NCBI GenBank assembly: GCA_016195565.1
Contig: JACPZK010000005.1
Span: 1 to 64,000, forward strand
Source: Nitrospirota bacterium
GTDB taxonomy: Bacteria; Nitrospirota; Thermodesulfovibrionia; Thermodesulfovibrionales; UBA1546
DNA length: 64,000 nucleotides
Reading direction: 5' to 3'
Shown one piece after another: positions 7,296-34,367 of this stretch (within the stretch, counting starts at the first letter, position 1; every line of letters starts with the position of its first letter). The position numbers and the translations under genes are program-made. A model generated the notes under the pieces. That model was not told where the DNA came from. It ran no database searches and was given only the letters and a program-made list of their open reading frames with translations.

Positions 7296-7943
7296 ATGAG
7301 GATAGTATTGTTAGGTGCGCCTGGCGCGGGCAAAGGGACTCAGGCTAAGAAGCTTATTGACAAATACGGGATTCCGCAGATTTCAACAGGCGATATCTTA
7401 AGGCAGAATGTAGCGGAGGGCACACCGCTCGGCAAAGAGGCAAAGTCCTATATGGACAAAGGAGAGTTGGTGCCTGACAGTGTAGTTTTGGGTCTTGTGG
7501 AGGACAGGCTTAAAAAGGATGACTGCAAAAAGGGCTATATCCTTGACGGTTTTCCGAGAAATACTGCCCAGGCAGAGACGCTGGATAAAATATTGGCGTC
7601 GCTCGGCATGTCACTGACAGGCGCGGTGAGCGTGAATGTCCCGAAAGAGGACCTTATGAAGAGGCTCACAGGCAGGAGGACCTGCAAGGGATGCGGGCAG
7701 ATGTACAATGTATATTTTTCTCCTTCAAAGAACGAAAGCGTTTGCGACAAGTGCGGCGGAGCGCTTTTCCATAGGGATGACGATAAAGAGGAGACAATTA
7801 AGAGAAGGCTTGATGTTTATGAGGCCCAGACAGCGCCGCTCATAGACTATTACAAAAAAAACGGGATTTTAAAATCTGTTACGGGTGTCGGAAGCATTGA
7901 TGAGATATTCAGCAAGGTTTGCAGCGCATTGGGCGCAAAGTAG
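7296..7943 (+). CDS. adk: Adenylate kinase, long LID form with zinc-finger cysteines
   Basis: Catalyses ATP + AMP to 2 ADP. Walker A GAPGAGKGTQ is at about 7-16, followed by ISTGDILR, the AMP-binding region and GFPRNTAQA. The LID (about 125-160) carries two Cys pairs, CKGC and CDKC, the zinc-binding form of the long-type enzyme. Placed 35 bases before sat, it would recycle the AMP released by APS reductase, a metabolic link to the sulfate-reduction genes downstream. All ten Arg codons are AGG or AGA, typical of this genome. Confidence 0.96.
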   Translation: MRIVLLGAPGAGKGTQAKKLIDKYGIPQISTGDILRQNVAEGTPLGKEAKSYMDKGELVPDSVVLGLVEDRLKKDDCKKGYILDGFPRNTAQAETLDKILASLGMSLTGAVSVNVPKEDLMKRLTGRRTCKGCGQMYNVYFSPSKNESVCDKCGGALFHRDDDKEETIKRRLDVYEAQTAPLIDYYKKNGILKSVTGVGSIDEIFSKVCSALGAK

Positions 7944-7978
7944 ATAAAATTAATTTTTAAATTTTCAAGGAGGAAAGA

Positions 7979-9178
7979 ATGGCATTAATTAAACCACATG
8001 GGTCAGACAAACTAAATCCACTATTTGTATATGACACGGCTGAAAATGAAGCCCTGCAGAAAGAAGCTAAAGGTCTGGCTTCGATTGTTGTGAGCTCAGC
8101 TACTGCAGCTAATGCAGTTATGCTGGGTGGTGGTTACTTCAACCCATTAACAGGCTACATGAATAAAGCTGATGCCCTATCTGTTGCTACAGATATGAAA
8201 ACAACATCCGGTTTGTTCTGGCCTACTCCAGTTTTAAACTTGGCTAAAGCTGCAGGCTCAATCAAAGCGGGCGAACGCATTGCACTGAAAGATCCAAATG
8301 TCGAAGGCCATCCTGTACTGGCCGTTATGGATGTAAAAGCGGTTGAAGAATTCAGCGATGCAGAGATGGCGCTGATGTCTGAAAAAGTTTACCGTCCCAG
8401 GCTTCCTGAAGCACATCCGGGTGTTGAAGCCTTTAACGCTCAGGGTAAAGTTTGTCTGTCAGGTCCAATCAAAGTATTAAACTTCTCTTACTTCCAGGAT
8501 GAATTCCCGGACACTTTCCGTACTGCAGTTGAAATTCGTAACGAAATCAATGAGCGCGGCTGGAAGAAAGTTGTTGCTTTCCAGACTCGTAACCCAATGC
8601 ATCTGGCTCACGAAGAACTATGTCACATGGCAATGAAGCGCTTAGGTTGTGATGGTCTGGTTATTCACATGTTACTTGGTAAATTGAAAAAAGGAGATAT
8701 ACCGGCGCCTGTTCGTGATGCTGCGATCCGTAAAATGGTTGAGCTGTACTTCCCAAAAAACAGTGCAATGATTACCGGTTACGGTTTTGATATGCTTTAT
8801 GCCGGTCCACGCGAAGCTGTATTGCACGCCATATTCCGTCAGAACATGGGTGCAACTCACTTCATTGTTGGCCGTGACCATGCGGGTGTTGGTGATCACT
8901 ACGGTGCATTCGATGCTCAAACTATCTTTGATAATGAGGTGCCTGCCGGTGCGCTGAAAATTGAAATCTTCAAAGCTGACCACACTGCATACTCGAAGAA
9001 ACTGAACAAGGTTATGATGATGTGTGAAGCGCCTGATCATAAAAAAGAAGACTTTGTTCTGCTTTCAGGTACAAAAGTTCGTGAAATGTTAGGCAAGGGT
9101 ATTGCACCACCTAAAGAATTCTCACGTCCTGAAGTGGCTGAAATTCTGATTAAGTATTATCAGAGTCTTGAAAAATAG
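7979..9178 (+). CDS. sat: Sulfate adenylyltransferase (ATP sulfurylase)
   Basis: Activates sulfate with ATP to adenosine phosphosulfate and PPi, the first step of dissimilatory sulfate reduction; in sulfur oxidisers it runs in reverse. The single-domain 399-residue form has VAFQTRNPMHLAHE (about 199-212) and GRDHAGVGDHYG (about 298-309), the two active-site motifs, and no APS-kinase domain. AGGAGG precedes the ATG. Arg codon use is strikingly foreign: 14 of 15 are CGT/CGC, whereas adk (10 of 10) and aprB (6 of 6) use only AGG/AGA. This points to fairly recent acquisition, perhaps from a CGT-preferring proteobacterium (inference). Confidence 0.97.
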   Translation: MALIKPHGSDKLNPLFVYDTAENEALQKEAKGLASIVVSSATAANAVMLGGGYFNPLTGYMNKADALSVATDMKTTSGLFWPTPVLNLAKAAGSIKAGERIALKDPNVEGHPVLAVMDVKAVEEFSDAEMALMSEKVYRPRLPEAHPGVEAFNAQGKVCLSGPIKVLNFSYFQDEFPDTFRTAVEIRNEINERGWKKVVAFQTRNPMHLAHEELCHMAMKRLGCDGLVIHMLLGKLKKGDIPAPVRDAAIRKMVELYFPKNSAMITGYGFDMLYAGPREAVLHAIFRQNMGATHFIVGRDHAGVGDHYGAFDAQTIFDNEVPAGALKIEIFKADHTAYSKKLNKVMMMCEAPDHKKEDFVLLSGTKVREMLGKGIAPPKEFSRPEVAEILIKYYQSLEK

Positions 9179-23161: not shown

Positions 23162-23382
23162 GCAGTGCATAAGTTCTATGCCCATAGCGTCGAAGGGAAG
23201 CCGAAGAGCGAATGGCAGGGGCTTGAGGAGCATTTGCTGAATGCGGAGGGGACTGTCCCAGATTTACGGACGGAGCAAAGCGTAGTCGTAGAATCGGGAC
23301 TGTCCCCGGCTAAAAGGAATGTGGCGAAGTTTGCCGCCGAATTCGGCTGTGGGCGATTGGGCATATCTGGCGGGGTTGTGGC
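23162..23382 (+). pseudogene. Decayed 5' fragment of a divergent cas3
   Basis: The fragment reads HKFYAHSVEGKPKSEWQGL and EEHLLN, matching the start of the intact Cas3 at 24250 (EFYAHSIKGKPTREWQGL, GEHLLN), then after a foreign stretch and a frameshift GDWAYLAGLWHD, matching residues about 42-53 of Cas3. It stops exactly at the HD motif. An inserted segment with two GGGACTGTCCC copies breaks it. Nucleotide similarity is clearly incomplete (many silent and non-silent changes), so it comes from a different cas3 allele and is not a recent tandem duplicate. Confidence 0.85.
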
Positions 23383-23481
23383 ATGATAAAAATTGACTTG
23401 CCTTGAAATTGCTTTAAGGGTAGACTATTTTAAATTGTTTGAGACTGAATGATTGTATTCGGCAGGTGAGGAGGAAACTTT

Positions 23482-23811
23482 ATGAATGATAGAGATAGGG
23501 CTTTGATATTGGATATTAAAAGAAGGCTTTCATCGGATTTGGAGGGTCATGTAAAACGCCTCATAGTTTTTGGTTCGAGAGCAAAAGGTGAAGCAGCAGA
23601 GGATTCTGATCTTGATGTAATTGCATTGGTTGATGAAAAAAATCCGGAGATTGAAAAAGGTCTTGAAGATATAGCGTATCAGATTATGTGGGATCATGAC
23701 TTCAGGCCAATCATATCACTCAAGGTGCTCTCTGAAGCTCAATTCTATAATGCTCTCAATAGAGGTTTTTCCTTTTACCGGCATGTTGAAAAAGAAGGTG
23801 TTTCAGTATGA
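23482..23811 (+). CDS. MNT-type nucleotidyltransferase antitoxin (MntA-like)
   Basis: A 109-residue minimal nucleotidyltransferase with VFGSRAKGEAAEDSDLDVIAL, the GSx10DxD core (about 32-51), and a third acidic residue in the region after it. In MntA/HepT pairs the MNT protein neutralises the HEPN toxin, in studied cases by AMPylating it. GAGGAGG precedes the ATG. It overlaps the HEPN gene by four bases (ATGA). Confidence 0.88.
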   Translation: MNDRDRALILDIKRRLSSDLEGHVKRLIVFGSRAKGEAAEDSDLDVIALVDEKNPEIEKGLEDIAYQIMWDHDFRPIISLKVLSEAQFYNALNRGFSFYRHVEKEGVSV

Positions 23812-24188
23812 CCGAGGAGGTAAAAAAGCTGGTTGAAAAAGCTGAACATGCACTTGAGGTGGCTGAAAAATTGATGGAGGATGGCTATCCATCTGATGCT
23901 GCAAGCAAAATCTATTATTCAATGTACTATGCAGCGCAGGCGCTTTTAAAATCAGAAGGAATTGATGTTATCAAGCATTCTGCCGTTGAATCAGCATTAG
24001 GGTATCACTTTGCTAAGACTGGAAAGATTGACTCCAAATACCACAGGATGCTTATAGATGCAAGGAAGATTCGTGAGATAGCCGATTATGATATTCAGGA
24101 AGAGATTATTGAGCCGGCTGCATCGCTAAAAATTGAAGAGGGGAAATCTTTTTTAGCTGAAATCAAGAAAATTCTCGGCAGCCCGTAG
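23808..24188 (+). CDS. HEPN-domain toxin (HepT-like)
   Basis: A 126-residue all-helical protein: AEHALEVAEKLMEDGYPSDA, then AASKIYYSMYYAAQALLKSE, typical for HEPN proteins of MNT/HEPN pairs. The segment ARKIREIADYDI takes the place of the Rx4-6H ribonuclease motif; here it is the R...ADY form known in this subgroup. Translation is coupled to the MNT gene. The pair lies between the cas3 relic and the intact cas3. Confidence 0.85.
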   Translation: MTEEVKKLVEKAEHALEVAEKLMEDGYPSDAASKIYYSMYYAAQALLKSEGIDVIKHSAVESALGYHFAKTGKIDSKYHRMLIDARKIREIADYDIQEEIIEPAASLKIEEGKSFLAEIKKILGSP

Positions 24189-24249: not shown

Positions 24250-26463
24250 ATGCCTCACGAATTCTATGCACATAGTATTAAGGGGAAGCCGACAAGAGAA
24301 TGGCAGGGGCTTGGGGAGCACTTGCTGAATGTCGCTGAGCTTGCAAAGAAGTTCGGGGATGAATTCGGCTCAGGAGATTGGGCGTATCTGGCGGGGTTGT
24401 GGCATGATATGGGAAAGTATTCGGAGGATTTTCAGAAGATGCTTCTTGCCTCTGCCGATGCGCATATTGAGACAAAGCCAGGTCGGGTTGATCATTCAAC
24501 AGCAGGGGCAATTCATGCCATTGAAAAATTAAAAATACCGGGCAGAATATTAGGCTATCTTATCGCAGGACACCATGCGGGGTTGGCAGATTGGCAAACT
24601 GATATGGCTGGGAGAAAGAGCCTTGTACAACGATTGCAGAACATTAATCTTTTTCATAAGCTACCCTTTTCAGACATCCCTCATCATATCATTGAGCAAT
24701 CCCGTCCAAAACAAAAATTTATAACCAAAGAAGGTCATGCCCTGTGGATAAGGATGCTTTATTCTTGCCTTGTTGATGCTGACTTTCTTGATACAGAGGC
24801 GTTTCTTGAGCCGGGAAAAACAAAGACACGAAAAGGCTACCCCTCATTGAAAGAGCTTCTGTCGTTCTTTGAATCTTATATGGCTTACAAACAGACGAAT
24901 GCAGTTGATACTCTTGTTAACAAAAAGCGGGCGGAGATACTCAAACAATGTATCTTAAACTCAGCGCATGAACCTGCGATATTTACCCTGACGGTTCCAA
25001 CTGGCGGTGGCAAAACGCTTTCGTCAATGGCATTTGCGCTGAATCATGCCGTGAAGTACGGTATGGAGCGAGTAATTTATGTCATACCCTATACAAGCAT
25101 CATTGAGCAGACAGCTGAACAATTCAGGGAAATTTTCAAAGATGCTGTTATCGAGCATCACAGCAATGTTGATGTCTCTGACGAGAGCAGTGAGACCGCA
25201 AGAAGCAGGCTTGCCTGTGAAAACTGGGACGCTTCGGTGATCGTAACAACGTCAGTTCAATTTTTTGAATCCCTTTTTGCCAATCGTTCAAGCCGCTGTC
25301 GGAAGCTACACAATATTGCAAACACCGTTGTGGTTTTAGATGAAGTGCAGCTTCTGCCGCCTGAATATCTTAACCCGATTCTCCATACAATGAAAGAGCT
25401 TCATCAGAATTACAATGTGACATTTGTCCTATGCACGGCGACACAGCCTGCATTCACGCCTCACAAATCGAATGACTATGAATTTAAGGGGCTACCTGAC
25501 ACCGTTGAGATAATGGAAAAGCCCCTGTCTCTTTACAAATCATTCAAACGGGTTGAGGTGCAGGTGCCAAACGATTTCTTAAAACCTTGCTTATGGGAAG
25601 ACCTCGCATCTGAGCTTACTCAACATCCGTCAGTTTTGTGCATTGTGAACAGGCGAGACGATTGCCGGACACTTTACGAGTTGATGCCTGAGAAAGGAGA
25701 AAAAACCTTTCACCTCTCCGCTCTTATGTGCGGCGAGCATCGTTCGAAAGTAATTAAGCAAATAAAACAGAGACTTAAAGATAAAATCCTGACCCGTGTC
25801 ATAAGCACACAGCTTGTTGAGGCAGGCGTTGATCTTGATTTTCCAGTCGTCTACCGCGCCCTTGCAGGGCTTGACTCGCTTGCACAAGCTGCGGGCAGAT
25901 GCAACAGGGAAGGACTCCTTGAGAGCGGGCATGTAGTGGTTTTTATTCCACCGAGTAAATTCCCTGTTGGTTACTTGAGACAGGCAGGAGAAATCGGCAG
26001 AAGACTGCTTGCTGAAAAAGCAGACGACTTACTTTCACCAAAAAGGTTTGAGCAATTTTTTAAAGAATTGTACTGGCTTCAAGGGACTAACCTGGATGAG
26101 CATGAAATTATGAAAGACCTTGCTATAGACAAGGAGTTGCGATTCAGTTTTCTCTCGGCAGCTCAGAAATTCAAGATGATTGACGATAAGCAATATGCTC
26201 CTGTAATTGTATGTTACGAAGAAGGGGAGAGATTGATTGAGATGCTGAAAAAACTTAGTCCCGAAAGATGGCTGATGCGTAAGCTTCAAAGATATGTTGT
26301 GAATCTGCCTAAATACGGTCATGCAAAACTTTACAAAGATGGCGCTATTATTGAAGCTCATCCGGGTATATATATTCAGGTAAATAGGGCAATGTATCAT
26401 CCTGAGCTTGGGTTTTGTCCTGATAAGTCTATGATCTACGAGCCAGATGATTTAATGTGTTAA
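24250..26463 (+). CDS. cas3: CRISPR-associated helicase/nuclease Cas3, type I-C
   Basis: Single-strand DNA nuclease-translocase recruited by Cascade. The HD nuclease domain has EHLLN, LWHDMGKYSEDF (His-Asp about 52-53), DHSTAGA and AGHHAGLADW. The SF2 helicase has Walker A TVPTGGGKTLSSMAFALNHA (about 249), motif II DEVQLLPPE (about 364) and motif VI QAAGRCNREG (about 546). The 737 residues and HD-helicase order match type I-C. No ribosome site is visible before ATG 24250. All motifs are intact, so interference is plausible. A relic of another cas3 start lies 1.1 kb upstream. Confidence 0.96.
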   Translation: MPHEFYAHSIKGKPTREWQGLGEHLLNVAELAKKFGDEFGSGDWAYLAGLWHDMGKYSEDFQKMLLASADAHIETKPGRVDHSTAGAIHAIEKLKIPGRILGYLIAGHHAGLADWQTDMAGRKSLVQRLQNINLFHKLPFSDIPHHIIEQSRPKQKFITKEGHALWIRMLYSCLVDADFLDTEAFLEPGKTKTRKGYPSLKELLSFFESYMAYKQTNAVDTLVNKKRAEILKQCILNSAHEPAIFTLTVPTGGGKTLSSMAFALNHAVKYGMERVIYVIPYTSIIEQTAEQFREIFKDAVIEHHSNVDVSDESSETARSRLACENWDASVIVTTSVQFFESLFANRSSRCRKLHNIANTVVVLDEVQLLPPEYLNPILHTMKELHQNYNVTFVLCTATQPAFTPHKSNDYEFKGLPDTVEIMEKPLSLYKSFKRVEVQVPNDFLKPCLWEDLASELTQHPSVLCIVNRRDDCRTLYELMPEKGEKTFHLSALMCGEHRSKVIKQIKQRLKDKILTRVISTQLVEAGVDLDFPVVYRALAGLDSLAQAAGRCNREGLLESGHVVVFIPPSKFPVGYLRQAGEIGRRLLAEKADDLLSPKRFEQFFKELYWLQGTNLDEHEIMKDLAIDKELRFSFLSAAQKFKMIDDKQYAPVIVCYEEGERLIEMLKKLSPERWLMRKLQRYVVNLPKYGHAKLYKDGAIIEAHPGIYIQVNRAMYHPELGFCPDKSMIYEPDDLMC

Positions 26464-26486: not shown

Positions 26487-27128
26487 ATGAGGGATTCACC
26501 TGTTACAAGTAATGCCTTTCGTCTAAAAGTATGGGGCAGGAATGCTTGCTTCACGCGGCCAGAGATGAAAGTGGAGCGCGTTTCATATGACGTTATGACG
26601 CCATCTGCTGCACGAGGAATACTTGAAGCGATTCTCTGGAAGCCTGCCATTCTCTGGAAGGTGACGCAGATAGATGTGCTGAATCCGATTAAGTGGGAAT
26701 CGGTGCGCAGAAATGAGGTCGGCGCTGTCATGTCTCCGCGAACAAACGGATTGTTTATCGAGGATCAGCGACAGCAACGAGCAGGGTTATTTCTCAGGGA
26801 TGTTGCTTATACAATTCATGCGCATTTTGAGCTTACTGATAAGGCAGAGAACGAGGATACAGTTGTTAAGTTTACAGAGATGTTTCTCCGCAGGGCTGAA
26901 AAAGGGCAGTGCTTTCAACGTCCTTATCTTGGCTGCCGTGAGTTTGCTGGTGAGTTTGAAGTGTTTACAAACGGTAAGAAATTGCCAGAACCAATTGCCG
27001 AAACCCGCGACCTCGGCTGGATGCTCTACGATATGGATTTCGAAGGCAAAGAGCCTATGCCACGCTTCTTCAAGGCAAGCCTCGACAACGGACGCATGAT
27101 GACTGATGAAAGGGTGGTGAGACAGTGA
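26487..27128 (+). CDS. cas5c: CRISPR-associated protein Cas5c
   Basis: In type I-C, Cas5c replaces Cas6: it cuts pre-crRNA at the repeat stem and holds the 5' handle in Cascade. The family start (FRLKVWGRNACFTRPEMKVE), SYDVMTPSAARGILEAI and the FIEDQRQQRAGLFLRDVAY segment are clear. Length 213 is normal. AAAGGAGGGG precedes the ATG. The stop overlaps the GTG start of cas8c (GTGA). Confidence 0.93.
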   Translation: MRDSPVTSNAFRLKVWGRNACFTRPEMKVERVSYDVMTPSAARGILEAILWKPAILWKVTQIDVLNPIKWESVRRNEVGAVMSPRTNGLFIEDQRQQRAGLFLRDVAYTIHAHFELTDKAENEDTVVKFTEMFLRRAEKGQCFQRPYLGCREFAGEFEVFTNGKKLPEPIAETRDLGWMLYDMDFEGKEPMPRFFKASLDNGRMMTDERVVRQ

Positions 27129-28852
27129 TTCTACAGGCATTGACAAAGTATTATGAGCGAATTCCAAATGTCGCTCAAGAAGGATATCAGAAGCAGGCCA
27201 TTTCGTTTCTCATCATCATTAAAAAAAATGGGGATTTTGTCGGATTACAGGATTTGAGAGAAGGAGAAGGTAAAAAGAAAAAAGGGCAATTCCGCTTAGT
27301 GCCGAAGGCTGTTAAGCGAACTATTAAGTCAGCAGCAAACCTTTTATGGGATAATCCTGCATATGTCTTGGGACGACCTAAGCCTGACAAGAGAAAGGAT
27401 ATGAAGGCTTTGCTCAAGAGGGCAGAAGAACAGCGAGCTCTTTTTCTTGAGCATATCAAAAACACCTTTTGTTGCAATCATGTTGACGAGGGAGTTGCTG
27501 CCGTAATCCGGTTTCTTGATACGAAAAACTATAAAAAACTTTTTGATCATCCACTATGGAAAGATATTGAGGAAAGCGGAGCAAATATAACATTTCAAAT
27601 AGAAGGCGATACGGAACTTGTTTGCCAGCGTGAAGCTGTGCGAAATGCTATCAGTACCTCTTCAAGCACTGATCGTTCCGAATCTCAAATCTGTCTTATA
27701 ACCGGCAAACAGGATAGTCCAGCCCGGCTTCACACTGCCATTAAAGGCGTCTGGGGTGCACAGCCATCTGGTGCGAATATTGTAGCGTTCAACCTCGATG
27801 CTTTCAGATCGTTCAACAAAGAACAAGGCTATAATGCGCCTGTCGGCAAGAAAGCAGAATTCGCTTACACAACTGCATTAAATACTTTGCTTGCAAAGGG
27901 CTCACGACAGCGCATTCAGGTAGGTGATGCAAGCACTGTTTTTTGGGCCGAGAGAAAGCATGACATTGAAGACTGGTTTGCAGATATTTTTGGAGAACCT
28001 GCTAAAGGAGATAGTGAGCAGGACTATGCAGCCATCAAGGCTTTGTTCAAGTCGCCTGAAACAGGAGCGAAACCTCTACTTGATAACAATATTAAATTTC
28101 ATGTTCTTGGCCTGTCTCCAAATGCATCACGGATTGCTATCCGTTTCTGGTATGCAGGAACCATCACTGAAGTTGAAGAAAATATTAAGCAGCACTTCAA
28201 GGATATTGCCATTGACCACGCTCCACGCCAGCCTGAATATTTATCACTTTTCCGATTACTTGTTTCAACAGCTTTACAGGGGAAGGCAGATAACATCCAG
28301 CCCAATCTATCAGGCGATTTCATGAAGGCTGTACTTACTGGTACGCCGTATCCAACAACGCTTTTATCAGCGGCAATACGGCGGATAAAGGCTGAGCGTG
28401 AAGTTACATATCCACGAGTATCGCTTATTAAAGCCATACTTGTAAGAAATGCACGATTTTATGAAATAAACCTAAAGGAGGAGGTAGGTATGTCATTGGA
28501 TACAAGCAACACTAACATAGGCTATCGTCTTGGGCGACTCTTTGCCGTTCTCGAAAAGATTCAGGAAGAGGCAAGTCCTGGAATCAACGCCACTATTAGA
28601 GACAGGTTTTATGGTTCGGCATCAAGCGTCCCTGTTACCGTCTTTTCGCATCTTATGAAACTGAAGAATCATCATATTGCAAAGCTTGAAAGCAAGGGAC
28701 GTACAGTAAATCTGGAAAAGATAATAGGCGAGATAGTGGATGATATAAAGGACTTCCCCGGCCATCTGAGTCTCGATGATCAGGGGAGGTTTGCAGTTGG
28801 CTATTATCACCAGAGACAGGATTTTTTTAAGAAGAAGGATATAAAGGAGTAG
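27125..28852 (+). CDS. cas8c: CRISPR-associated protein Cas8c (Csd1)
   Basis: Large subunit of type I-C Cascade, which recognises the PAM. Family features are GLQDLREGEGKKKKGQFRLV near the start, CLITGKQDSPARLHTAIKGV, VAFNLDAFRSFNKEQGYNAP, FHVLGLSPNASRIAIRFWY and DTSNTNIGYRLGRLFAVLEK. The last part doubles as the small subunit (Cas11c) in type I-C. A GGAGGAGGT site lies just before ATG 28490 (MSLDTSNTNIGYRLG), the expected internal start for Cas11c. Length 575 is usual. GTG start coupled to cas5c. Confidence 0.94.
   Translation: MILQALTKYYERIPNVAQEGYQKQAISFLIIIKKNGDFVGLQDLREGEGKKKKGQFRLVPKAVKRTIKSAANLLWDNPAYVLGRPKPDKRKDMKALLKRAEEQRALFLEHIKNTFCCNHVDEGVAAVIRFLDTKNYKKLFDHPLWKDIEESGANITFQIEGDTELVCQREAVRNAISTSSSTDRSESQICLITGKQDSPARLHTAIKGVWGAQPSGANIVAFNLDAFRSFNKEQGYNAPVGKKAEFAYTTALNTLLAKGSRQRIQVGDASTVFWAERKHDIEDWFADIFGEPAKGDSEQDYAAIKALFKSPETGAKPLLDNNIKFHVLGLSPNASRIAIRFWYAGTITEVEENIKQHFKDIAIDHAPRQPEYLSLFRLLVSTALQGKADNIQPNLSGDFMKAVLTGTPYPTTLLSAAIRRIKAEREVTYPRVSLIKAILVRNARFYEINLKEEVGMSLDTSNTNIGYRLGRLFAVLEKIQEEASPGINATIRDRFYGSASSVPVTVFSHLMKLKNHHIAKLESKGRTVNLEKIIGEIVDDIKDFPGHLSLDDQGRFAVGYYHQRQDFFKKKDIKE
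28476..28492 (+). promoter_or_regulatory. Internal ribosome binding site and ATG within cas8c (putative Cas11c start)
   Basis: AAAGGAGGAGGTAGGT immediately precedes ATG 28490, in frame with cas8c. In studied type I-C systems an internal start in cas8c yields the small subunit Cas11c; the strong site here fits that and would give a protein of about 120 residues. Confidence 0.7.
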
Positions 28853-28913: not shown

Positions 28914-29819
28914 ATGAGCAACACAATCAACAACCGCTATGATTTTGTATTATTCTTTGATGTAAAGGACGGCAATCCCAACGGAGACCCGGACGCAGGC
29001 AACCTGCCGCGCGTTGATCCTGAAACAGGACACGGGCTTGTTACGGACGTTTGTTTAAAAAGGAAAGTAAGAAATTATGTGCAGATGTCAAATGGGAATA
29101 AAGATGGATACGATATTTTTGTGAAAGAAAAAGCGATACTCAACAAATATATTAGAGAAGGATATGAGACATTGGGCATTAATCTTAACGAACCACCCAC
29201 AGACAAAAAAGATGGAGAGAAGCGTAAAACCAAAGGTGGAGCTCAAAGCAGCGAAATTGAGAAAGGACGGCAGTATATGTGTAAGACTTACTATGATGTC
29301 CGAACTTTCGGGGCCGTTATGAGTACAGGTCCTAATGCTGGACAAGTTAGAGGTCCGATACAAATGACTTTTGCGCGCTCCGTTGATCAAGTAGTTCCAC
29401 TTGAACATTCATTGACTGTTTGCGCTGCCCGTTCTGAGGATAAATCAATCGAAGAACAAATTGGCATTCAAGGGCGTAAATTCACAATCCCTTATGGACT
29501 TTATCGTTGCCACGGATTTATCTCTGCACCATTTGCAACGCAGACAGGATTTAACGAAGATGATTTGAATCTATTCTGGAAGGCTCTTCTTGAAATGTTT
29601 GAGCATGACCGATCTGCAGCGCGGGGACAAATGGCCACTCGGAAGCTCATCATTTTCAAGCACGATTCAGCAATGGGTAATCATCCGTCTCACGTGCTGT
29701 TCGACATGGTCAAGGTCAAATCCGAAAACAAGCCTGCGCGTGATTTCAGTGATTACACTGTCACAGTACCTACTCAGGCAAATATGCTGCAGGGTGTAAC
29801 TTTGGAGGTCGAGCTTTAG
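28914..29819 (+). CDS. cas7c: CRISPR-associated protein Cas7c (Csd2)
   Basis: Backbone subunit of type I-C Cascade that polymerises along the spacer part of crRNA. NRYDFVLFFDVKDGNPNGDP with DAGNLPRVDPETGHGLVTDV is the signature N-terminus; GAVMSTGPNAGQVRGPIQM and FARSVDQVVPLEHS follow. Length 301 is usual. AAGGAGG precedes the ATG. cas4 begins directly after its stop. Confidence 0.96.
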   Translation: MSNTINNRYDFVLFFDVKDGNPNGDPDAGNLPRVDPETGHGLVTDVCLKRKVRNYVQMSNGNKDGYDIFVKEKAILNKYIREGYETLGINLNEPPTDKKDGEKRKTKGGAQSSEIEKGRQYMCKTYYDVRTFGAVMSTGPNAGQVRGPIQMTFARSVDQVVPLEHSLTVCAARSEDKSIEEQIGIQGRKFTIPYGLYRCHGFISAPFATQTGFNEDDLNLFWKALLEMFEHDRSAARGQMATRKLIIFKHDSAMGNHPSHVLFDMVKVKSENKPARDFSDYTVTVPTQANMLQGVTLEVEL

Positions 29820-30212
29820 TTGTACACTGAAGACGATTTGATTCAACTCTCTTCCTTGCAGCACTTTTTTCCTGTTGAATACAAGCGCGGAAAACCTAAG
29901 ATGGATGATTGCGATAAGGTTCAGCTTTGCGCTCAGGCAATCTGTCTTGAGGAAATGCTCAATGTTGAAATTCCGGAAGGCGCGCTTTTTTACGGCCAGA
30001 CTCACCACAGGCATGATGTGATTTTTGACAAGGCATTGCGTTCGGAAACAGAAGACGCTGCGAAAAAAGTTCATGAGCTTATTGAATCAGGGATTACGCC
30101 GAAAGCTGAATACTCAAAAAAGTGCAAGAAGTGTTCTTTGGTAGAGTTGTGCCTGCCTAATGCAAGCAGTAAGGCGAGTAATTATCTGATGAAGGCGATG
30201 GCGGAGGAATAA
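29820..30212 (+). CDS. cas4: Cas4 with large internal deletion (type I-C), probably inactive
   Basis: Cas4 normally trims prespacers and selects PAM together with Cas1-Cas2, using a RecB-like nuclease and a four-Cys iron-sulfur cluster. Here YTEDDLIQLSSLQHF, the family N-terminus, runs directly into FPVEYKRGKPK. In full-length I-C Cas4 about 80 residues lie between these, carrying the first cluster Cys (FCxRQW), the motif-I His and the metal-binding Asp. The rest, QLCAQAICLEEML and the CKKCSLVELC cysteines, is intact and in frame; total 130 residues versus about 210. A TTG start follows the cas7c stop directly, with GGAGG 12 bases upstream. Three of four Cys remain. Confidence 0.88.
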   Translation: MYTEDDLIQLSSLQHFFPVEYKRGKPKMDDCDKVQLCAQAICLEEMLNVEIPEGALFYGQTHHRHDVIFDKALRSETEDAAKKVHELIESGITPKAEYSKKCKKCSLVELCLPNASSKASNYLMKAMAEE

Positions 30213-30221
30213 AGGAAGCCT

Positions 30222-31280
30222 ATGAAGAAAAAGAAAGAACAAATTCCAGTTAAAAGTGATTTGATTCTGTATCAGACAGAGGATGGCAAAACTAATATCG
30301 AGGTGAGATTGCAGGACGAAACCGTCTGGATGAGCCAATTGGCAATGGCGGAACTGTTTCAGACAACTGTCCCTAACATCAATATTCATTTAAACAATGT
30401 GTATGACGAAGGAGAGCTTTCAGAGATGGCAACTATTAAGGATTACTTAATAGTTCGGCATGAGGGTTCCCGGCAGGTTCGCCGCAATGTAAGGCACTAC
30501 AACCTTGAAGCTATTGTCGCGGTCGGCTACCGGGTGAAATCACTTCGAGGCACTCAGTTTCGCAGGTGGGCAACAGAGCGGTTGAATGAGTATCTCATCA
30601 AGGGCTTCACCATGGACGATGAACGGCTGAAAGAAGTCAATAATATCGGCTCTGATTACTTTGATGAGATGCTTGAGCGGATAAGGGACATCCGGTCAAG
30701 CGAAAAGCGTTTTTATCAAAAAATCCGCGACATCTATAAACTTGCGGTTGATTACGATCCGAATGCAGAAGAAACCCTGGAATTTTTTAGCATTGTCCAG
30801 AACAAGCTGCACTTTGCAGTATCAGGAAAGACTGCTGCTGAAATAATCTCCGAACGGGCGGATGCATCGAAGCCCAATATGGGATTGACTTCATGGAAGG
30901 GGGCAAAAGTCCGCAGGGGGGATGTGACCATTGCCAAAAACTATCTGAATCATAATGAAATCGAGCATCTCAACCGCATTGTTGAAATGTACCTGAATTA
31001 TGCCGAAGATCAGGCCAAACGCCGCAGGCAGGTTTTCATGCGCGACTGGCGGAAAAAGCTGGATGCCTTCCTGAAATTTAACGAACGGGATATTCTGACT
31101 AACGCAGGCAAGGTGACCAAAGAAGTAGCGAATAAGCTGGCGCTTGATCATTATGAAGCATTTAACCGCAACCGGCTTGCAATAGAGGCGAAGGAGGAAG
31201 CTCTTGCTGACGATGAAGAACTGAAAAAGATAGAAGCGGCTATCGAAAGAAAAAAGAGACAGAGACATAAAAAGACATGA
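30222..31280 (+). CDS. RhuM-family protein embedded in the cas operon
   Basis: Full-length (352 residues) RhuM-family protein. The N-terminal domain has ETVWMSQLAMAELFQTTVPN, RNVRHYNLEAIVAVGYRVKS and RGTQFRRWATERLNEYLIKG, a winged-helix/BRO-N-like DNA-binding pattern. The C-terminal helical domain has TSWKGAKVRRGDVTIAKNYL, YLNYAEDQAKRRR and KLDAFLKFNERDILTNAGKV. The family was named for a Salmonella pathogenicity-island gene; its biochemical role is unknown. It begins nine bases after cas4 and its TGA overlaps the cas1 ATG (ATGA), so it is translated as part of the operon. It is not a usual I-C component. Confidence 0.92.
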   Translation: MKKKKEQIPVKSDLILYQTEDGKTNIEVRLQDETVWMSQLAMAELFQTTVPNINIHLNNVYDEGELSEMATIKDYLIVRHEGSRQVRRNVRHYNLEAIVAVGYRVKSLRGTQFRRWATERLNEYLIKGFTMDDERLKEVNNIGSDYFDEMLERIRDIRSSEKRFYQKIRDIYKLAVDYDPNAEETLEFFSIVQNKLHFAVSGKTAAEIISERADASKPNMGLTSWKGAKVRRGDVTIAKNYLNHNEIEHLNRIVEMYLNYAEDQAKRRRQVFMRDWRKKLDAFLKFNERDILTNAGKVTKEVANKLALDHYEAFNRNRLAIEAKEEALADDEELKKIEAAIERKKRQRHKKT

Positions 31281-32308
31281 AAAGACACCTTAATACATTG
31301 TTCGTGACAACTCAGGGCGCGTATCTTTCAAAAGAAGGAGAGACAGTCATTGTCAAGGTTGATGGAGAAGTGGCCTTGCGCTTGCCTGTTCATACCCTCG
31401 GCGGCATTGTCTGTTTCGGACAGGTCAGTTGCAGCCCGTATCTTATGGGCTTTTGTGCAGAGCGCGGAGTGTCAGTTAGTTTCATGACTGAAAACGGCAG
31501 CTTCCTCGCAAAGGTTCAGGGGCCTGTGTCAGGCAATGTACTTCTGAGGCGCGAACAATACAGGAAGGCTGATGATCAGAAATTCTCTGCTGATATGGCA
31601 ACTGCTTTTCTTACAGGAAAAATTACCAACAGCAGGACGGTCTTGCAGAGAGCGCTAAGGGATCATTCAGAGAAAATCGAATGTTCTGAACTTGAAGATG
31701 CAGTTCAAAAACTCAACAGCTCTTTAAGGAGGCTACAGTCTGATTCAGATCTCGATTCTTTGCGCGGGATTGAGGGCGACTCTGCAAATGCATATTTCAG
31801 CGTCTTCGACCACCTGATTACAACTCAAAAGGAAAACTTCTTTTTCAAGGAGCGTAACAGGCGTCCGCCTCTTGATAATGTAAACTGTCTGCTTTCTTTT
31901 CTTTATGTGATTCTGATGCACGATATAAGGTCTGCGCTTGAAGCAGTCGGGCTGGACCCTGCTGTGGGCTTTTTGCACAGAGACCGGCCGGGGCGCTATA
32001 GTCTTGCCTTGGATTTGATGGAAGAGTTCCGTCCGTTTTTTGCAGACCGTTTGGCTCTTTCATTGATTAATCTCTGTCAGGTGCAGGACAAGGGGTTTAA
32101 TAAAAAAGAATCAGGCTCAGTGTGGATGGATGACGACACAAGAAAGACAGTGCTGGTAACTTACCAGAAGCGTAAGCAGGATGAGATGATGCATCCTTTT
32201 TTGAAAGAGAAGGTTACTGTCGGGCTGTTATTTCATACGCAGGCATTGCTTCTGGCGCGCTATCTGCGCGGGGATATGGATGCATATCCGCCGTTTATAT
32301 GGAAGTGA
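31277..32308 (+). CDS. cas1: CRISPR integrase Cas1, type I-C
   Basis: Catalytic subunit of the Cas1-Cas2 spacer integrase. The 343-residue protein has an N-terminal beta domain (TLFVTTQGAYLSKEGETVIV) and the helical catalytic domain with IEGDSANAYF (metal-binding Glu), GFLHRDRPGRYSLALDLMEE (His and Asp) and FRPFFADRLAL. All three catalytic positions appear present. Its ATG lies in the stop codon of the RhuM gene. Confidence 0.95.
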   Translation: MKRHLNTLFVTTQGAYLSKEGETVIVKVDGEVALRLPVHTLGGIVCFGQVSCSPYLMGFCAERGVSVSFMTENGSFLAKVQGPVSGNVLLRREQYRKADDQKFSADMATAFLTGKITNSRTVLQRALRDHSEKIECSELEDAVQKLNSSLRRLQSDSDLDSLRGIEGDSANAYFSVFDHLITTQKENFFFKERNRRPPLDNVNCLLSFLYVILMHDIRSALEAVGLDPAVGFLHRDRPGRYSLALDLMEEFRPFFADRLALSLINLCQVQDKGFNKKESGSVWMDDDTRKTVLVTYQKRKQDEMMHPFLKEKVTVGLLFHTQALLLARYLRGDMDAYPPFIWK

Positions 32309-32317
32309 GGAGAAATT

Positions 32318-32608
32318 ATGTTTATGATTGTAAGTTATGATGTGTCAACAGTTGAGAAGGGCGGGCAGCGCCGTCTGCGAAGGGTAGCGCGTGCGTGTCT
32401 TGACTATGGACAGAGGGTGCAGAATTCTATCTTTGAATGCATTGTTGACCCTGCGCAATGGACAACGCTCAGGTCGAGGCTCGTTAAGGAGATTGACCCT
32501 GCAAAAGACAGTCTGCGGTTTTATTATCTCGGCTCTAACTGGAAACACAGGGTTGAGCATGTGGGTGCAAAGGCAACGATTGAACAGGATGGGCCATTAA
32601 TAATTTGA
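32318..32608 (+). CDS. cas2: CRISPR-associated Cas2
   Basis: Small ferredoxin-fold partner of Cas1 (96 residues). It starts MFMIVSYDVSTVEKGGQRRL, contains RVQNSIFECIVDPAQW, and ends with FYYLGSNWKHRVEHVG, all typical of type I-C. GAGGAG precedes the ATG. The CRISPR leader begins directly after its stop. Confidence 0.95.
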   Translation: MFMIVSYDVSTVEKGGQRRLRRVARACLDYGQRVQNSIFECIVDPAQWTTLRSRLVKEIDPAKDSLRFYYLGSNWKHRVEHVGAKATIEQDGPLII

Positions 32609-33436
<828 letters not shown>

Positions 33437-33547: not shown

Positions 33548-33578
33548 TAAATCTTGTATTATATAAATAAATCTTGTA
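33548..33578 (+). promoter_or_regulatory. Direct repeats upstream of abrB-PIN pair, likely operator
   Basis: TAAATCTTGTA at 33548-33558 and again at 33568-33578, 20 bases apart (about two helical turns), just before the ribosome site of the antitoxin gene. Likely an antitoxin binding site; inferred. Confidence 0.45.
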
Positions 33579-33601
33579 AGTTATTATTGGAGGTGATGAG
33601 G

Positions 33602-33829
33602 ATGGAAAGCACGGTTACAGTGAGGGGGCAGACGGCGATCCCCGTGGCGATACGCAGAAAGTATAACATCAAGCCAAAGACAAAACTTGAGTGGATAGAT
33701 GACGGACATACCATAACTGTCTTGCCTATTCCCAAAGACCCCATTAAGGCGCTCAGGGGCAAATTCAGGGACACGGATCTTCTGCGGTCGCTTCTGAAAT
33801 CAAGGAAAGAGGAACGAGAACGTGTCTAA
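33602..33829 (+). CDS. AbrB/SpoVT-family antitoxin
   Basis: A 75-residue swapped-hairpin DNA-binding antitoxin: MESTVTVRGQTAIPVAIRRK and LEWIDDGHTITVLPI, then a basic C-terminal tail that would bind the toxin. GGAGGTG at 33589-33595 supports ATG 33602 over ATG 33596. It overlaps the PIN toxin gene by eight bases. Confidence 0.85.
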   Translation: MESTVTVRGQTAIPVAIRRKYNIKPKTKLEWIDDGHTITVLPIPKDPIKALRGKFRDTDLLRSLLKSRKEERERV

Positions 33830-34232
33830 GAGTTATGTGCTGGACACCTCTGCTATTTTCACTTTTACAAAGGCAGAGGAGGGCAGTGACGTGGTTGAAG
33901 ATATTCTGAATATGGCCAAGAAGGGGAAAGATTCGGTTTATCTCTCGTTCGTCAGCTTTATGGAATTGTACTATGTCACATGGCAGGAAAAAAGTGAAGA
34001 TGCTGCCAGGGAGTTGATTATACTGGTTAAGTCGCTGCCTGTTCACAGAGTAGATTCAAATGAAAGGCTCACTTTGTCTGCAGGCAGGCTTAAGGCAAAT
34101 CACAGGCTTTCGGTGGCTGATGCTTTTATAGCGGCAACAGCAATAGAAAAAGGCGCTGTCCTGGTTCACAAAGACCCCGAGCTTGAAGTTATATCAAAAT
34201 ACACAGAAATCATAGAGTTGCCGTATAAATAA
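33822..34232 (+). CDS. PIN-domain ribonuclease toxin (VapC family)
   Basis: A 136-residue PIN protein with a GTG start. Acidic active-site residues: Asp in VLDTSAIFTF, Glu in SFMELYYVTW, Asp in LSVADAFIAATA and Asp in VLVHKDPELE. Partner of the AbrB-type antitoxin just upstream. It lies between the CRISPR array and a lone divergent CRISPR repeat, so the module may have been inserted into or beside an older, longer array. Confidence 0.87.
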   Translation: MSKSYVLDTSAIFTFTKAEEGSDVVEDILNMAKKGKDSVYLSFVSFMELYYVTWQEKSEDAARELIILVKSLPVHRVDSNERLTLSAGRLKANHRLSVADAFIAATAIEKGAVLVHKDPELEVISKYTEIIELPYK

Positions 34233-34335: not shown

Positions 34336-34367
34336 GTCGCTCCTCGCGCGGGAGCGTGGATTGAAAC
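34336..34367 (+). repeat. Orphan divergent CRISPR repeat
   Basis: A single 32-base unit, GTCGCTCC at the start and GTGGATTGAAAC at the end, in the same orientation as the array 0.9 kb upstream. It differs from the array repeat at four positions (6, 9, 14, 18). Positions 6 and 18 pair in the stem and have changed together from G-C to T-A, and position 9 becomes a U-G wobble in RNA, so the hairpin is preserved. No second copy follows. Confidence 0.88.

Follow-up and report, generated by a model that had tools for sequence, protein, structure and literature searches.

Type I-C CRISPR-Cas systems use a 5'-TTC PAM (PMC8406640), and most of what is known of the part Cas4 plays in PAM selection comes from biochemical work and engineered strains. 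In types V-A and V-B, spacers can be acquired with Cas1 and Cas2 alone, but most PAM selectivity disappears unless Cas4 is active; in V-A, the absence of Cas4 also yields longer spacers (PMC9419969). Four cysteines are described as needed for the Cas4 cluster, the catalytically dead Cas4 used as a control is an active-site D/E double mutant (PMC12538437), and a survey of 7060 Cas4 proteins found the catalytic motifs and four cysteines kept in all (PMC5704561). Self-matching spacers account for ~0.4% of all spacers in published surveys (PMC6990116). Here we describe a natural type I-C locus in which cas4 carries an internal in-frame deletion and every spacer of the array matches the bacterium's own chromosome. 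The locus lies in a 64,000-nucleotide stretch (positions 1 to 64,000 of contig JACPZK010000005.1, forward strand; hereafter the window) of the genome of a Nitrospirota bacterium described as groundwater-type.

A type I-C locus with an internal deletion in cas4

The gene order cas3-cas5c-csd1-csd2-cas4-cas1-cas2, interrupted by an inserted rhuM-family gene, and matches to type-specific HMMs (TIGR01876, TIGR01863, TIGR02589 and TIGR03640) identify the locus as type I-C. Its features are as follows.

24250..26463, forward strand: cas3 (HD and helicase), apparently intact (TIGR01596 2-177/178; TIGR01587 3-331/358)
26487..27128, forward strand: cas5c (TIGR01876)
27125..28852, forward strand: cas8c/csd1 (TIGR01863)
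28914..29819, forward strand: cas7/csd2 (TIGR02589)
29820..30212, forward strand: cas4 with internal in-frame deletion, 130 aa, TTG start (PF01930 57-159/160; TIGR00372 81-180/180; relatives aligned)
29865..29870, forward strand: deletion junction, a run of six T between ...CAGCAC and CCTGTT... (nucleotide alignment with G010, G003 and others)
30222..31280, forward strand: rhuM-family gene in the cas4-cas1 interval, overlapping cas1 by 4 nt (PF13310, E=2e-115; same place in seven related loci)
31277..32308, forward strand: cas1c, full length, the sole Cas1 of the genome (TIGR03640 2-340/340)
32318..32608, forward strand: cas2 (TIGR01573, PF09827)
32609..32791, forward strand: presumed leader, inferred from its position between cas2 and the first repeat
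32792..33419, forward strand: CRISPR array of 10 identical 32-nt repeats and 9 spacers, all self-matching
33420..33429, forward strand: distal array end, a 10-nt partial copy of spacer 8 (CGAACAAGGG, identical to the start of that spacer, follows the last repeat)

The TTG start of the cas4 frame lies immediately 3' of the cas7 stop codon, with GGAGGT upstream. The product scores above the curated cut-offs of both PF01930 and TIGR00372, with only the second part of each profile covered (positions 57-159 of 160 and 81-180 of 180, respectively). Alignment with relatives showed that 76-77 codons (228-231 nt) are missing exactly between LQHF and FPVEYKRG, which are separated in the full I-C-type Cas4 proteins of relatives by 76-77 or more further residues. 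A preliminary description had claimed that the N-terminal motif is joined straight to FPVEYKRGKPK, which held, and that about 80 residues or 240 bases are missing, which held in part, the alignment giving the slightly smaller figure.

The missing segment is retained in ~40 relatives of the same order and in 34 GTDB loci from a species-wide collection. A scan of the order for Cas4 gave a match in 46 of 176 genomes, and only three I-C-type frames were shorter than ~200 aa: that of the window, a tandem partial copy in G030 that has a full-length cas4 alongside, and G175:C534 (148 aa), which we rejected as a second deleted Cas4 because an N gap in the assembly shortens its frame. Locus L055 resembles G030 in having an N-terminally truncated second cas4 with a full-length copy alongside. 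L046, for which the reported match comprised query residues 1-127, was likewise rejected, its ORF being full length. Within everything searched (the genomes of the order and the GTDB loci), the deletion is private to the window genome.

Homology at the junction, CAGCACTTTTTTCCTGTT, is no more than ~1 nt, and the longest exact word common to both breakpoints within ~40 nt, as read from relatives, has a length of 7 nt and is located away from the join. A repeat-mediated origin of the deletion was rejected on the same junction homology, and misassembly by k-mers is unlikely since there is no overlap at the join for a k-mer assembler to use. Misassembly, which the preliminary description had named as the result that would refute it, is thus not supported. 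As far as the assembled sequence, without raw reads, can tell, the deletion is real.

The deletion removes a cluster cysteine and active-site residues

We judged the invariance of Cas4 residues over 23 full-length relatives, using the numbering of the G010 protein. Four invariant residues are gone from the window Cas4 (C21, G43, H47 and D81), and seven are retained (E98, Y99, K100, Q113, C180, C183 and C189). The set of four Cys for the Fe-S cluster is incomplete after the loss of the first Cys, which leaves C102, C105 and C111 of the shortened protein, and the RecB-type His and metal-binding Asp (H47 and D81) both fall inside the deleted segment. The E-x-K and Q-rich (QLCAQ) motifs are present (E20, K22 and Q35). 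The losses are shown directly by the alignment. Nuclease activity of the protein is very unlikely because a cluster Cys and active-site residues are missing, a conclusion inferred from sequence alone. The preliminary description was accordingly right that the first Fe-S Cys, the conserved His and the metal-binding Asp are lost, and its claim that the protein cannot bind a four-Cys cluster or cut DNA normally is supported, the loss of activity remaining an inference; that the catalytic first half is removed held only in part, as the E-x-K and QLCAQ motifs of the nuclease remain.

The nearest solved relative of the full-length G010 Cas4 is the I-C Cas4 in the Cas4-Cas1-Cas2 complex 8d3l (E=2e-47), and 8d3l was the best fold match for structure models of both the G010 protein (TMq 0.82) and the truncated window protein (TMq 0.55). 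The pTM of the window model was 0.57 versus 0.76 for G010, and most core strands are absent from it. The window protein therefore belongs to the same family and operon as the Cas4 of 8d3l/8d3q, and differs from it in lacking most core strands and 76-77 residues, among them the first Cys, the His and the Asp. A PF01930 search found no other Cas4 in the window genome; the second match was rejected as another Cas4, being a 930-aa AddB-like protein.

The retained part of cas4 has a dN/dS of 0.13 versus G010. Of the few changes private to the lineage, three are non-synonymous and fall at conserved positions (L108V, K114N and E128A), which fits relaxed constraint, but the changes are too few to decide. 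We rejected dN/dS as a discriminator, since it cannot separate a recently dead Cas4 from one that is still functional. Codons 27-85 of the window cas4 (29898-30074, compared with L029) are nucleotide-identical to G010, and the flanking codons differ, which suggests a recent recombination tract.

All nine spacers match the bacterium's own chromosome

The array is the only one in the genome with its repeat. A search of the genome with its spacers showed that all nine match the chromosome, on other contigs, eight of them perfectly and spacer 8 at 34 of 35 positions. Most genus mates carry the same chromosomal places at lower identity, and the spacers are therefore recent and derived from the window lineage. 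Named from translations, the targets are core genes encoding an epimerase, a DppC-type permease, a TrkA-type channel, a TPR protein, a GlcF-like Fe-S protein, RbfA, a response regulator/PilZ protein, ComEC and a B12 radical SAM protein. No credible match was found when eight spacers were searched against IMG/VR as exact 24-26-mers or when all nine were compared with phage records by blastn, as follows from their origin in the bacterium's own chromosome. The spacers are 32-36 nt long, with an SD of 1.62 versus ~0.9 in most control arrays (permutation p = 0.016); so wide a spread is not unique to the window, the array of L047, whose Cas4 is full length, having an SD of 1.59.

The 10-nt copy at 33420-33429 includes the single mismatch of spacer 8 to the chromosome, and is probably the remnant of a duplicated repeat-spacer unit that was truncated later. 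Just past the array are a MazE/AbrB-like antitoxin and a PIN toxin (33554-34232), followed by a lone variant repeat, GTCGCTCCTCGCGCGGGAGCGTGGATTGAAAC, at 34336-34367.

As controls we used ten relatives whose Cas4 is full length and whose Cas1 is related (G003, G008, G016, G027 and G030, and the genomes of L031, L034, L035, L037 and L042); their spacers were searched in their own genomes. Seventy-eight control spacers were retrievable, as counted from the returned rows, and because each was recovered in its own array, the search was able to see them. Only one of the 78 had a self match, a G030 spacer against gyrB with a 5'-TTC flank; it comes from a 3-spacer array, and the positions for this spacer and the tandem partial cas4 of G030 are G030:C46 17964-18257 and G030:C63 27882-27916. 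The contrast between 9 of 9 in the window and 1 of 78 in the Cas4-intact relatives is shown directly (Fisher p = 2e-11), with the proviso that the control genomes are drafts, in which self targets lying in absent parts would be missed. Comparison of the relatives' spacers with other genomes of the order, and of L037 spacers with phages, produced no match yielding a PAM.

None of the self protospacers is preceded by TTC

On their 5' side, the nine protospacers carry the trinucleotides GCA, TAG, GCA, ATC, TCA, TCA, AAG, GAG and ATT. The usual I-C PAM, which the preliminary description had proposed to compare with those of the protospacers, is thus present at 0 of 9 of these chromosomal sites (all nine array spacers checked), and the locus shows no choice of spacers next to 5'-TTC. 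Zero of nine has a probability of 0.82 under random sampling, and of ~5e-7 with a live Cas4 (80% fidelity) and dead interference. The absence of TTC is not independent proof of a Cas4 defect, because survivorship alone purges TTC-flanked self spacers; the stronger fact is the self origin of all nine. The two results together support the earlier suggestion that PAM-dependent prespacer trimming is affected.

On the 3' side, GAA, which corresponds to TTC on reversed insertion, is found at two of nine protospacers (spacers 1 and 4; p ~0.015 for the 3' side, 0.057 with both ends counted). This could hint at leftover PAM recognition, though it rests on nine cases only. An alternative PAM such as NCA (4 of 9 sites) is not claimed, the sites being too few.

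The locus is a chimera with an apparent insertion hotspot beside cas4

G168, G056 and the L041 locus have the effector genes most similar to those of the window locus (cas7 75-80%), whereas the best counterparts of its cas4, cas1 and cas2 are in G010 and G003 (cas1 96-98%), whose effectors differ. Because the two modules have different closest relatives, the locus is chimeric, its effector and adaptation modules meeting at cas4. The cas4 deletion may have arisen during module exchange, which we offer as a suggestion only. At 23174-24188 the window holds a decayed 5' stub of cas3 (84% identity across 70 nt with the beginning of the intact gene), and after it, directly upstream of cas3, a nucleotidyltransferase/HEPN (MNT/HEPN) pair. 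Several relatives have similar N-terminal cas3 stubs ahead of unrelated effectors, a sign of effector-module exchange.

RhuM, a proposed toxin (PMC3710099), is located between cas1 and cas9 in the Bacteroides fragilis II-C system (PMC5704556). A RhuM-family gene occupies the cas4-cas1 gap in the window (30222-31280) and in L029, L031, L032, L034, L039, L042 and L044; these genes are 56-87% identical and often begin only ~10 nt past cas4, and the effector modules of the loci differ. In twelve further loci (L033, L035, L038, L040, L041, L047, L050, L051, L052, L054, L055 and L056) the gap holds other genes, encoding Bro-N proteins, DUF433/DUF5615 pairs, RelBE-like pairs, AbrB/PIN-like pairs, AbiEi/AbiEii-like proteins, 23S rRNA IVP-like four-helix proteins or an IS200-like transposase. 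The gap in this clade looks like a toxin-antitoxin insertion hotspot inside the adaptation operon. In L055, the truncated second cas4 (7853-8695) forms an in-frame fusion with a four-helix-bundle (IVP-like) protein and adjoins the full-length cas4 and a cas1 fragment.

Discussion

We consider it likely that the deletion is a real, private loss of function that led to PAM-free acquisition and to the toleration of self spacers. With an intact Cas4, self DNA adjacent to TTC would give rise to a lethal spacer, and other self DNA would seldom be captured. In the window lineage, the in-frame deletion would have inactivated Cas4, including its PAM-specific cleavage, within an otherwise complete I-C locus, and Cas1-Cas2 would have gone on integrating spacers; both steps are inferred. 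Without Cas4, the PAM-bearing end of the prespacer would be neither recognized nor trimmed, such that capture would become independent of the PAM and the captured DNA would mostly be the bacterium's own chromosome. Self spacers without 5'-TTC at their source would not direct the effector to attack and may accumulate as neutral, harmless entries, while useful anti-phage spacers would turn rare, because those too would mostly be without TTC. The surviving array appears younger than the loss of Cas4, since even the oldest (leader-distal) spacer is self-derived and PAM-less; that the deletion came first and gave rise to the spacer pattern is nevertheless an inference from one genome and nine spacers.

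The most direct objection is that the deletion reflects a collapsed or chimeric assembly and that the cells really have an intact Cas4. The genome is a draft of 33 contigs, related cas4 copies may share the sample and, with the reads unavailable, a sequencing artefact is conceivable; yet the join offers ~1 nt of homology at most, the shared words of no more than 7 nt are too short for a k-mer overlap, the contig extends tens of kilobases to either side, and the array has the phenotype expected from a Cas4 defect, so we regard an artefact as very unlikely. It is similarly improbable that interference is dead and the loss of Cas4 incidental, with a defective effector letting self spacers pile up. 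Such a defect would explain the tolerance of nine self spacers, and the locus is rearranged, with the cas3 5' stub and MNT/HEPN pair upstream of cas3. However, HMM matches show cas3, cas5, cas8 and cas7 to be full length, and a working Cas4 predicts TTC at the self spacers, which none of the nine has, yet the single self spacer of the Cas4-intact relatives does.

Self-acquisition might instead have been driven by a phage-borne or other foreign Cas4, as proposed for the host-derived spacers acquired under phage Cas4 in Campylobacter phages CP8/CP30A (PMC6990116). There is, however, no second Cas4 in the window genome, and a Cas4 that works should have imposed a PAM, of which none is observed, leaving this explanation with very little support. 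The last rival holds that the short Cas4 is a selected, non-nuclease subunit with a structural role on Cas1-Cas2. The preserved frame, ribosome-binding site and operon position, together with the low dN/dS versus G010, speak for it, whereas the three replacements at conserved positions, as under relaxed constraint, and the core strands missing from the model speak against it; the deletion is too young and too private for a test, and we find this rival hard to credit. Loss of function with PAM-free acquisition remains our preferred reading. A bolder version, in which the Cas4-less locus goes on adding random fragments of its own genome to the array as a stable or even used state (for example, through PAM-independent binding of crRNA to host genes) rather than undergoing mere immune decay, appears unlikely.

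Like laboratory delta-cas4 or dead-Cas4 strains of types V-A and V-B (PMC9419969), the window locus combines PAM-free acquisition as we infer it, chromosomal spacers and wider or longer spacer lengths; unlike those strains, it is natural, of type I-C and recorded in the array of an environmental genome. The fragmented CasY (fCasY) of Roizmanbacteria (PMC6509639) and Lactobacillus acidophilus NCFM (PMC6990116) also have several chromosomal spacers per array beside a damaged locus. In those cases the interference side is broken, whereas here it is the adaptation checkpoint, and the self protospacers of fCasY retain the PAM, whereas those of the window are all without one. The window locus is thus a known system in a naturally occurring variant form, apparently one of lost function, and not a new kind of system.

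For a role of Cas4 established mostly outside natural populations, the window provides a natural experiment: a wild lineage with an apparently loss-of-function Cas4 beside apparently intact Cas1-Cas2 and effector, whose array records the outcome. Some PAM-less self spacers may thereby gain an evolutionary explanation, in which the adaptation checkpoint is broken instead of interference, and this explanation makes a prediction that can be searched for, namely that other naturally broken cas4 genes would be found beside PAM-less self arrays.
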